A DNA stretch of 64,000 nt from Methanothermococcus okinawensis IH1 (GTDB lineage: Archaea; AGJL01; Methanococci; Methanococcales; Methanococcaceae), in contig NC_015636.1 of the NCBI RefSeq assembly GCF_000179575.2, forward strand, positions 845,495-909,494, written 5' to 3'. Both the position numbers and the translations under genes were made by a program. Below are positions 25,808 to 28,984 of this stretch, piece by piece. Under the pieces are notes generated by a model. It did no database searches, had not been told where the DNA came from, and saw only the letters and a list, made by a program, of their open reading frames with translations. Position 1 is the first letter of the stretch, and every line of letters starts with the position of its first letter.

Positions 25808-25837
25808 TTAAATAATTATAATAATTATTTATTGTGG

Positions 25838-25948
25838 GTCATAATAATTCGTTTCCATTAACTTTTTAATTTTCATATATGGGAACGATTAAATTTGTTT
25901 TAATATTTAGTGTTGATATTTAAAGAATATGCAAAATGACCTGCCCTA
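25838..25948 (+). repeat. Left 111-bp inverted repeat
   Basis: Identical over 111 bases to the reverse complement of 28641-28751. Four further outer bases (TGTG against CACA) agree across one mismatch. Inside is an imperfect hairpin (CGTTTCCAT and ATGGGAACG, 8 of 9). Near the inner end an ATG (25936) begins the ORF MTCPRIKIVI and then stops. Confidence 0.95.
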
Positions 25949-25983
25949 GAATAAAAATAGTTATCTAAATAATTTAGGTTTCT

Positions 25984-27872
25984 CTATTTTAATATTCTCA
26001 TTGAGTTAAAAACTGCGAGTAGTGCAACTCCAACATCTGCAAATATGGCTTCCCATATTGTGACCTGCCCAAGAACTCCGAGTAGTACAAATGACAGCTT
26101 AACAGTTAAAATTAAGATTATATTCTTCATAACTATATTCTGTACCTTCTTTGATATTTTAATTCCTAAAGGTAGCTTCGAAGGTTTATCGTCCATTATA
26201 ACTATATCCGCTGTTTCTATAGCAACGTCACTTCCCAGTGCTCCCATTGCAACACCCAATTCTGACCTTGCAATAACTGGAGCATCGTTTATTCCATCCC
26301 CAACGAAAACAACGGTACCATTTTCTTTCTCCGCTTCAAGCTTTTCGATAATATTTACTTTATCCTCTGGTAGTAATTCAGCGTAAATCTCATCTAAGCC
26401 GATTTTTTTTGCTATCTCTTCTGCAACATCTTTCTTGTCACCCGTAAGCATTACAATCTTTTTAACTCCAAGTTTTCTGAGCTCCTGTATGGTTTCTAAA
26501 GCGTCTTTTTTTATCTCGTCGGATATTATTATGTAACCTGCATACTCCCCATCAACAACCACATGAACAACAGTACCTTTTACATGACAGGTGTTATGTT
26601 TGATGTTAAATTTATGCAAAAGCCTATCGTTTCCAACCATAATTTCTTTTCCATTAATTTTAATTCTAACTCCATACCCTGGTATTTCCTCATGTTCTTT
26701 AATCTCGTTTTCATTAATTTCTTTTCCATAAGTCTCTTTTATTGCATTTGCAATTGGATGACTTGAATGAGCTTCAGCCAATGCCGTAAACTTTAAGATT
26801 TCATCTTTGTTAAAGCTGTTCTTTGCGACTATCAGTACTGTTTTAAATACTCCTTTTGTTAAAGTTCCTGTTTTGTCAAATGCCACAATTCTAGCTTTGC
26901 TCAGTGCATCGAGAAAGTTTGAACCTTTGACGAGTATTCCTTCTTTGGCGGACTTTCCAATTCCTCCGAAGTAGCCTAACGGAATTGAAAGTACCAATGC
27001 ACATGGACAGGATATAACCAATAGTACCAATGCCCTATACACCCAATTGAATAAAGGTTCTCCAAAAACCAGGGGTGGGATTGAGGCTATGAGTATTGCT
27101 AAACCTACGATTATTGGAGTATAGTATCTGGAAAATCTGGTAATAAAACGCTCTGTTTTTGTTTTTCTTGTACTTGCATTCTCAACTAGTTCAAAGATTC
27201 TTGAAATTGTCGATTCTTTGAGCTCCTTTGTAACCTTAACTGTTAAAAGACCATTTAAGTTTAACATTCCTGATAGGAGCTCATCCCCTTCTTTGATTAC
27301 CTTAGGTATACTTTCGCCTGTTAGGGCCGAGGAGTCAACAGTAGATGAACCTTCAATCACCAATCCATCCAATGGTACCCGTTCTCCAGGTTTTACTAAA
27401 ATTAGATCACCAACTTTAACATCTTCAGGTTTAACTTTAATTGTCTTATTTCCAATCTTTAAGTTTGCGTAGTCTGCCTTTAATGCTAACAACCCTTTTA
27501 TTGATTTTCTAGAACGATTTATTGATAAGTTCTGGAAGAACTCACCCACCATATAGAAGAGCATAACACCTACGGCTTCAGGATATTCTCCAATAGCAAA
27601 GGCCCCTAAAGTGGCTATTGTCATAAGAAAATTCTCATCAAAGATATTTCCATGAATGGAGTTTACAACAGCGTTCCTTAGAACTTTCCACCCCACTAAC
27701 ATATAGCTTACGACAAATATTCCAAAAACAAAAATATTGTTGTAGTTGTAGTAGTACCTAAGTAGTATCCCAATTACAAAAAAATTAACGATGGGACTAT
27801 GAAGTAAAGCATTTTCTTTGGATCTTCACCATGATTATGGTGGTCATGGTGATGTTCTTCTTTTTCCATCAT
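25984..27872 (-). pseudogene. Heavy-metal P1B-type ATPase (Zn/Cd/Co type), frameshifted
   Basis: A metal-export ATPase of about 629 residues if repaired. The start at 27872 (ATGATG overlapping the stop of the HMA gene) gives a histidine-rich metal-binding N-terminus (EEHHHDHHNHGED) and a first helix, then stops at 27774 because of the T7 run at 27778-27784 (minus strand). One more T restores continuity into the 572-residue remainder. That part has TGES, the CPC metal site (ISCPCALVLSIP), DKTGTLTKG, the SSHPIANAIK motif and VGDGINDAPV. The CPC site and His-rich tail fit Zn2+/Cd2+/Co2+ efflux. Confidence 0.9.
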
Positions 27873-28052
27873 TTCAACCCCTGAATCAACTTCATTACTA
27901 TATTTTTGGCTTTTTCAATGTCTCCTTCAATGGTGAGCTCACCGGTAGTGAAGTTAACTGATGCAGACTCAAACCCCTCTTTTTAAGGCATTTTCAATCA
28001 TATATGCACAGTTTGCACAATCTAAACCTTTCAATTTAAGTTTTTTTGACAT
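27869..28052 (-). pseudogene. Heavy-metal-associated (HMA) domain protein, frameshifted
   Basis: A 60-residue metallochaperone if repaired. MSKKLKLKGLDCANCAYMIE holds the GLDCANC metal-binding loop, and the second half reads EGFESASVNFTTGELTIEGD in another frame. The segment is 184 bases, one more than a multiple of three; removing one A of AAAAA after ENAL restores the frame. AGGTGAG lies 4 bases before the ATG. Its stop overlaps the ATPase start (ATGA). It would bind and hand soft metal ions to the ATPase. Confidence 0.85.
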
Positions 28053-28053
28053 T

Positions 28054-28422
28054 TTACTCACCTAAATGCTCTAGTGCAACTTTCAAGATCTCCTAAGGTG
28101 TTCATCCTCCAAATGATAGAATACATTTTCCATCCCCTCTATAATTGACATTTTTTCTGCCCTTCAAAACCCTAAGCTGATGTGAAATTGCCGAAACCGA
28201 GAGCCCAGTAATATTTGATAGGTCACAGGTGCAAAGTTCCTCTTCTTTAAGGGCAAGTAAAATTTTAAGTCTTGTTGGATTCCCAAATGCATTAAAGAAG
28301 TTTGAAAGTTCTTTAATTGTGTCGTTTTCTGGAAGATTTTTATTTACTTTTTTTATTTTTTCCCGATGTTCTTTGTAAACTTCACAAATATACGATATTA
28401 TACCATCAGTTCAATTGAACAT
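28054..28422 (-). pseudogene. ArsR/SmtB-family metal-responsive repressor, multiply interrupted
   Basis: The winged-helix core is clear: ELSNFFNAFGNPTRLKILLAL, then the sensor-like ELCTCDLSNITGLSVSAISH and QLRVLKGRKNVNY, then in shifted frames VFYHLEDEH and EILKVALEHLGE. The ELCTCDL site is the cysteine pair of CadC/ArsR-like Cd/Pb/As sensors. Two frame changes lie in short G runs near the 3' end. The first ATG (28422) is followed by TGA at codon 4. An alternative start needs another indel. It would repress the operon from the palindromes at its own start. Confidence 0.82.
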
Positions 28423-28430
28423 TTGTTCAA
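28409..28430. promoter_or_regulatory. ArsR/SmtB-type operator (overlapping palindromes)
   Basis: TTGAACA-TT-TGTTCAA (28415-28430) is a perfect inverted repeat of the TGAACA-N2-TGTTCA kind bound by SmtB/CadC-type repressors. It overlaps a second perfect 12-base palindrome, GTTCAATTGAAC (28409-28420). They cover the ArsR start region, downstream of TATA-like sequence on the minus strand near 28432-28450, so binding would block transcription of the efflux operon. Confidence 0.7.
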
Positions 28431-28488
28431 ATGTTATTTATAATTATTGTGTATTTTTACATACATAAAGTATAAAAATAATCACACA

Positions 28489-28653
28489 CTACACTCGAAA
28501 ATTTGAATATTGATAACAAAAATTATGTAATATATGTAAATATATTAAATAGATTGATTTTGAACCCTCTATCACAGCAAGGTAATCCGCATGCTCCATG
28601 TAGGTTGGTTTATTGGGGGAGTATATAGTTATGTTATATTTAGGGCAGGTCAT
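28489..28653 (-). CDS. Short ORF starting inside the right repeat, possible transposase or gene remnant
   Basis: 54 codons. It starts MTCPKYNITI within the repeat and continues YSPNKPTYMEHADYLAVIEG before becoming low-complexity. The first 30 or so residues look protein-like and lie in a locally GC-richer patch, but I recognise no family. The left repeat begins the same ORF (MTCPRIKIVI) and ends at once. Treated as a remnant, not an expressed gene. Confidence 0.3.
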   Translation of the reverse strand: MTCPKYNITIYSPNKPTYMEHADYLAVIEGSKSIYLIYLHILHNFCYQYSNFRV

Positions 28654-28751
28654 TTTGCATATTCTTTAAATATCAACACTAAATATTAAAACAAATTTAA
28701 TCGTTCCCATATATGAAAATTAAAAAGTTAATGGAAACGAATTATTATGAC
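28641..28751 (-). repeat. Right 111-bp inverted repeat
   Basis: Exact reverse complement of the left repeat at 25838-25948. It points inward toward the efflux operon. Its outer edge continues as CACA, matching TGTG at the outer edge of the left copy. Confidence 0.95.
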
Positions 28752-28844
28752 TCACACTATTTTTTATTTTTATTTCATTATCTTTTTATTTTTTTATTTA
28801 TTTAATCCTAATATTATGTTATTCAATGCATACATTTGAATAAC

Positions 28845-28891
28845 TTTCACTATATATAGTGAAACATTATATTACACTATGTATGGTGAAA
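28845..28891 (+). promoter_or_regulatory. Tandem palindromic operators
   Basis: TTTCACTATATATAGTGAAA (28845-28864) is a perfect 20-base palindrome. A second copy at 28872-28891 matches it at 17 of 20 positions and starts 27 bases later. They overlap the TATA-like core and lie just before GGTGA and the ATG at 28894, the arrangement of a repressor-controlled or autoregulated promoter. Confidence 0.65.
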
Positions 28892-28893
28892 CT

Positions 28894-28929
28894 ATGAGAG
28901 AAACTATAAAAGCAATAATTAAAGAATAA
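28894..28929 (+). pseudogene. Eleven-codon gene remnant downstream of the tandem operators
   Basis: A well-formed start (GGTGA, 5 bases, ATG) begins MRETIKAIIKE and meets TAA; reading past it gives LNKSELR and another stop. The pattern recalls the N-terminus of archaeal AAA-type ATPases of the MRETIKxIIxEW kind, so it is probably the 5' stub of a lost gene. It could instead be a tiny regulated peptide. Confidence 0.35.
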
Positions 28930-28984
28930 TTGAATAAATCGGAGCTCCGATAAATACTGCGATATAAATAACACCAATAATTAC

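Follow-up and report, generated by a model that had tools for sequence, protein, structure and literature searches.

In Acinetobacter, miniature transposable elements (MITEs) of 439 bp lie around class 1 integrons and blaPER-1, and composite movement of such MITE-bracketed units has been proposed (PMC3934969). Excerpts of a review (PMC10969869) describe further bacterial cases in which MITEs mobilise resistance genes, namely E622 of Pseudomonas syringae and IR148 with TnAs1, and place archaeal MITEs in Sulfolobus, Halobacterium, Haloquadratum and Desulfurococcus. Here we describe a pair of inverted MITEs that brackets a damaged metal-pump module between thrS and miaB in a window of 64,000 nucleotides from Methanothermococcus okinawensis IH1. 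The window is the whole stretch of DNA that was analysed, and coordinates refer to it unless a contig or another locus is named; its source genome (G000) comprises 1.68 Mb in two contigs.

Results

The inverted repeats are complete copies of a dispersed MITE family

A sequence-only reading of the window had reported perfect 111-bp inverted repeats around a metal-resistance operon and no transposase between them. Both observations were borne out. The repeats were re-found at 25838-25948 and 28641-28751 as exact reverse complements (100% identity over 111 bp), where length and exactness exclude chance by a wide margin, and the enclosed segment holds no transposase. The outward similarity of four bases across one mismatch was also recovered; a second mismatch comes next, and the elements end at 25831 and 28758. 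Inspection of copies aligned together with their flanks indicates a unit of ~117 bp that starts with AGNGTGGGTCAT and ends in its inverse, with 12-bp terminal inverted repeats (TIRs). Each inverted repeat is thus a complete, gene-less 117-bp MITE without coding capacity of its own rather than the end of an insertion sequence (IS). As placed by the family alignment and by their ends, the left copy (25831..25947, forward strand) directs its AG-type end outward (ATTGTGGGTCAT) and its CT end inward, and the right copy (28642..28758, reverse strand) is inverted, with AGTGTGAGTCAT as its outer end; substitutions are present in the outer ends of both. The internal hairpin claimed earlier exists, but only as a weak 6-bp stem with compensatory change at two pairs. 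Likewise, the inward-facing ATG is present but forms part of the terminal repeat, ATGACC, and opens an unsupported 54-aa ORF.

A search of the whole G000 genome with the 111-bp sequence, which the sequence-only reading had proposed, returned a dispersed multicopy family at 14 places: the pair itself, ten others that are full or nearly so (87-97%), a partial, decayed copy and a 30-bp fragment. Full or near-full 117-bp copies number 12 when the bracketing pair is included. The family occupies AT-rich spacers, its copies standing beside unrelated flanks. Target duplications were scored against a null of cross-paired flanks at the 95% level; among the ten lone copies, nine exceed this null, with duplications of 11-18 bp, and the tenth has a 9/10 bp AT-rich flank match at the 95% null level, such that lone-copy duplications are overall AT-rich and 10-18 bp long. 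Two sites with diverged cousins of the MITE in a sister species (G010; 73-85% identical where they match) show duplications of 16-19 bp. Because its copies have TIRs and target duplications, we regard the repeat as a transposable element. The alternative that the sequence-only reading had named as a refutation, an unrelated multicopy promoter region, is correct insofar as the repeat is multicopy, and the small conserved stem and the many copies would suit a regulatory or RNA element that had been duplicated to either side of the operon. That explanation is nonetheless highly improbable given the TIRs, the target duplications, the unrelated flanks and the ISs with nearly matching ends described below. 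Rfam contained no match to the repeat.

Several other structures were considered alongside this family. MITEs at 436254 and 440708 in G000 were rejected as a second composite, each having its own perfect duplication, and no second composite copy was found in anything searched. The plasmid and phage collections contained no match to the repeat, and the TIR-pair pattern found nothing in viral contigs. Scanning 85,000 genomes for TIR pairs yielded only a set of 110-130 bp palindromic elements in Planctomycetota, the 12-bp arms of which (TAGGGTGGGTCA) are identical to the end of the archaeal MITE. These were rejected as the same element, since their flanks look palindromic (TTG...CAA) and no target duplication is visible, and were treated as possibly REP-like. 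In the sister species, two same-orientation MITE-like copies enclose a 480-aa gene, the N-terminus of which looks like that of an exported protein, together with a 176-aa partner (G010:C1, ~468.6-470.6 kb; L056 1096-3115); the two genes might represent a putative toxin-immunity-like pair. In G012, which belongs to a different genus, a ~115-bp element (G012:C1:1484103; L079 2604) has the ends TAGCGTGGGTCA...TGACCCCACTA and an interior unrelated to the MITE, and may be a further MITE that uses the same transposase.

The enclosed metal-pump module and its relatives

The cargo (25948..28641) had been described as a full arsR-HMA-P1B ATPase module, a description that does not hold. Alignment with the G010 and G012 copies reveals five frameshifting indels, near 28130, 28095, 27985, 27897 and 27783, which break arsR and the ATPase N-terminus. 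The ATPase is of the cadmium/zinc P1B type (TIGR01525 and TIGR01512 above cut-off) and occupies a 613-codon open frame at 25984..27825 on the reverse strand, with 572 aa from the ATG at 27702; its HMA domain and N-terminus are lost to the frameshifts. Fragmentary frames and the G012 alignment place the ATPase's HMA domain and its initial transmembrane portion at 27774..28055 (reverse strand), where the indels near 27985, 27897 and 27783 fall. The remaining two frameshift the C-terminus of the ArsR/SmtB-type regulator (28102..28401, reverse strand; NF033788 above cut-off). Together, the five indels leave the C-terminus of arsR, the HMA domain and the ATPase start without a common frame. Consistent with this, Pfam detects HMA in the G012 protein and not in the window ORF. 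Full-length versions, a 115-aa ArsR and a 693-aa ATPase, are found in G012, and G010 has a full 693-aa ATPase with arsR mostly deleted.

The remaining 572 ATPase codons are open, with a dN/dS of ~0.13 relative to G012. All five indels fall within 350 bp and none within the 1.7 kb of coding sequence that follows, a spacing unusual for scattered sequencing errors; we describe them as apparent frameshifts, to which real mutation or sequencing error may each have given rise. Upstream of arsR, a palindromic operator-like site (TTGAACATTTGTTCAA region, 28410..28440) is identical in the three genomes and is a predicted operator, its role being assigned from the ArsR/SmtB family.

Comparison of the cargo with its neighbor thrS indicates very different histories. 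Cargo DNA is 94% identical to both G010 and G012 in blastn blocks, whereas the adjacent thrS is only 82% (G010) and 77% (G012) identical. For the same genome pairs (G000 versus G010 or G012), ATPase dS is 0.16-0.18 as opposed to 1.05-1.41 for thrS; for G010 versus G012, the values are 0.04 and 1.74, respectively. In neither G010 nor G012 does the cargo occupy the corresponding locus. Since ATPase dS is far below thrS dS in the same pairs and the loci differ, the comparison points clearly to horizontal acquisition of the cargo. The cargo was not found in the 90% complete assembly of the nearest relative, G003. Beside the module in G010 lies what appears to be a degenerate piece of an XTP-pyrophosphatase-like gene (L055 11230-11660), the intact form of which adjoins the module in G012; this arrangement suggests a G012-like donor.

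Junctions between cargo and resident spacer

On both sides, homology to the G010 and G012 cargo breaks off no more than one or two bases from the inner limits of the MITEs, at 25947 and 28640, such that the cargo is bracketed exactly by two copies of one MITE. DNA common to G010 and G012 runs ~50-80 bp past these limits at either end and includes no MITE there. Beyond the pair, the left outer flank (25808..25830) is spacer following the thrS stop; its first 12 bp are identical to G003, and the flank resembles G010. The right outer flank (28759..28984) is spacer extending to miaB; it resembles the thrS-miaB spacer of G010 and includes a remnant shared with G003 (~28872-28928, 91%). These outer-flank comparisons involve AT-rich sequence and are weaker than the cargo comparison. 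Because cargo homology stops inside the MITEs and thrS-miaB-like spacer lies outside them, the MITEs stand at the two points where foreign DNA meets resident DNA. The region downstream of thrS in relatives, which the sequence-only reading had suggested comparing, lacks the unit: the G010 spacer is short and empty of it, and G003 has a different insert. The spacer is variable, the G003 insert exceeding 1 kb (L097 3403-4902), and the short window remnant at ~28872-28928 is similar to the first part of an ATPase-like gene of G003.

Movement of cargo and MITEs as a single unit would predict a target duplication outside the whole. The best candidate is not convincing: it matches at 6/7 or 12/17 bp in AT-rich sequence, and 15% of null pairs score as high. 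Neither bracketing MITE has a convincing private duplication of its own, unlike the lone copies, and the right copy shows a weak 9/11 bp flank match. This match, and the mobility of the family within AT-rich spacers, would be in keeping with two independent MITE insertions at the edges of an already acquired module. Such a history is improbable, as both insertions must have struck the exact module/host junction without leaving a convincing private duplication at either copy, and both copies carry a private variant, GACCTGCCC, that is absent from every other copy of the family.

The distribution of differences between the two copies bears on their identity. Left and right MITEs differ by two mismatches in total, both within the outermost 7 of 117 bp, for which our own arithmetic gives a chance of ~0.003 if differences fell evenly. 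Gene conversion needs flanking homology and spares ends, and both mismatches are terminal; we therefore favor the interpretation that gene conversion may have homogenised the pair, which fits the mismatch positions better than recent insertion does. The earlier step from identical repeats to a recent insertion is thereby undercut, all the more so as the module is already frameshifted.

A candidate transposase source and alternative rearrangements

Degenerate ISs in G010 and G003 have ends that nearly match those of the MITE. Their first bases are TAGTATGGGTCA, TAGTGTGGGTCA or a variant that differs at one base, those that include the far end finish with TGATCCATACTA or TGACCAACACTA, and they contain pieces of a DDE_Tnp_1 transposase. 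PF01609 is above cut-off in the G010 remnant, and NCBIfam matches to IS5, IS982 and IS1182 are all below cut-off. An IS of this type probably moved the MITEs in trans. Only dead copies, in G010 and G003, were found; no intact IS or transposase with the MITE's own ends was found in G000 or its order. A casposon was rejected as a source, the sole Cas1 in G000 lying at 106.6 kb, unlinked to matching ends, and the sole convergent matching-end pairs being the MITEs themselves.

G000 also contains four near-identical 965-bp ISs with the ends AGAGTGTGGTGCAT and a related transposase (47% over 66 aa). These lie near 86.2 kb, 1547.2 kb, 1551.5 kb and 1578 kb of G000:C2 (L124, L126, L127), and all four have the same transposase frame breaks. 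Their flanks are swapped: each of AAATTAACCTA, AATAGTAACTA and TTAATATATT adjoins two different copies, one time each, a pattern such as chromosomal rearrangement through recombination between the ISs would produce.

A MITE-associated rearrangement could also have enclosed the cargo, either by an intramolecular replicative (inversion-type) event or by MITE-MITE recombination, each of which would leave no target duplication. Such an origin agrees with the outer duplication not being seen and with a genome that seems to recombine between its 965-bp IS copies. Inversion-type transposition was rejected, as the flank pairs that it predicts are absent. By our reasoning, moreover, recombination of one resident MITE cannot place AG-type ends at both outer flanks. 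We consider rearrangement unlikely overall, albeit the most credible of the alternatives to composite transposition.

Discussion

The simplest account of the locus is a MITE-bracketed composite element, the cargo and both MITEs having transposed as one unit. It is simplest because independent insertions must hit both junctions and leave private duplications, and recombination of a single MITE cannot yield the arrangement. Under composite transposition, two inverted 117-bp non-autonomous elements would have come to flank an arsR/P1B-ATPase module, and a DDE transposase from a related IS would have acted in trans on both outward-facing MITE ends, inserting the 2.9-kb unit as a whole between thrS and miaB. 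Later, gene conversion may have kept the MITEs identical while the extreme ends mutated and decay of the module began. We place composite transposition only somewhat above even, because the outer duplication that it predicts is weak. A compound unit mobilised by an IS elsewhere, as was proposed from the window alone, accordingly persists as the best reading in its outline, with the correction that the flanking repeats are complete MITEs and not IS remnants. Horizontal transfer of the cargo itself is well supported.

Should composite transposition be correct, MITE-bracketed cargo transposition, so far a matter of bacterial resistance genes, would extend to a thermophilic methanogen, and metal-resistance genes would have a way to move that requires no transposase in the unit itself. 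For the length and variability of the target duplications in the MITE/IS family there is as yet no biochemical explanation. As a more tentative and rather doubtful extension, an undescribed archaeal IS family (DDE_Tnp_1), with variable AT-rich duplications of 10-19 bp, may have spawned MITEs in several Methanococcales, pairs of which would serve as transposase-free composite transposons that carry metal-resistance genes between methanogen genera. In the open-access literature, we found no archaeal cargo-bracketing MITE pair and no MITE family that combines these ends with such long variable duplications.

The cargo resembles CadA/ZntA-type P1B ATPase operons with an ArsR/SmtB regulator in gene content, in its TIGR01512 match and in its operator-like palindrome, but the version in the window is damaged, in contrast to the full one in G012; in G010, arsR is mostly deleted. 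Like the archaeal MITEs named in the review excerpts (PMC10969869), the elements described here are short, non-autonomous and dispersed in an archaeal genome, whereas no cargo-bracketing pair is among those reported there. The E622 and IR148 cases, as given in the same excerpts (PMC10969869), share movement of cargo by MITE ends with a transposase acting in trans, but are bacterial and in part backed by experiments, whereas the archaeal unit is known from sequence alone. As in the Acinetobacter composites (PMC3934969), two identical MITEs bracket a resistance cargo that has no transposase of its own. In contrast, the Acinetobacter MITEs are bacterial, lie in the same direction and have a clean 5-bp target repeat, whereas here the pair is archaeal and inverted and its outer duplication is unclear. 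That is to say, MITE-bracketed resistance cargo is already established in bacteria, and the archaeal locus would represent a new instance of it.
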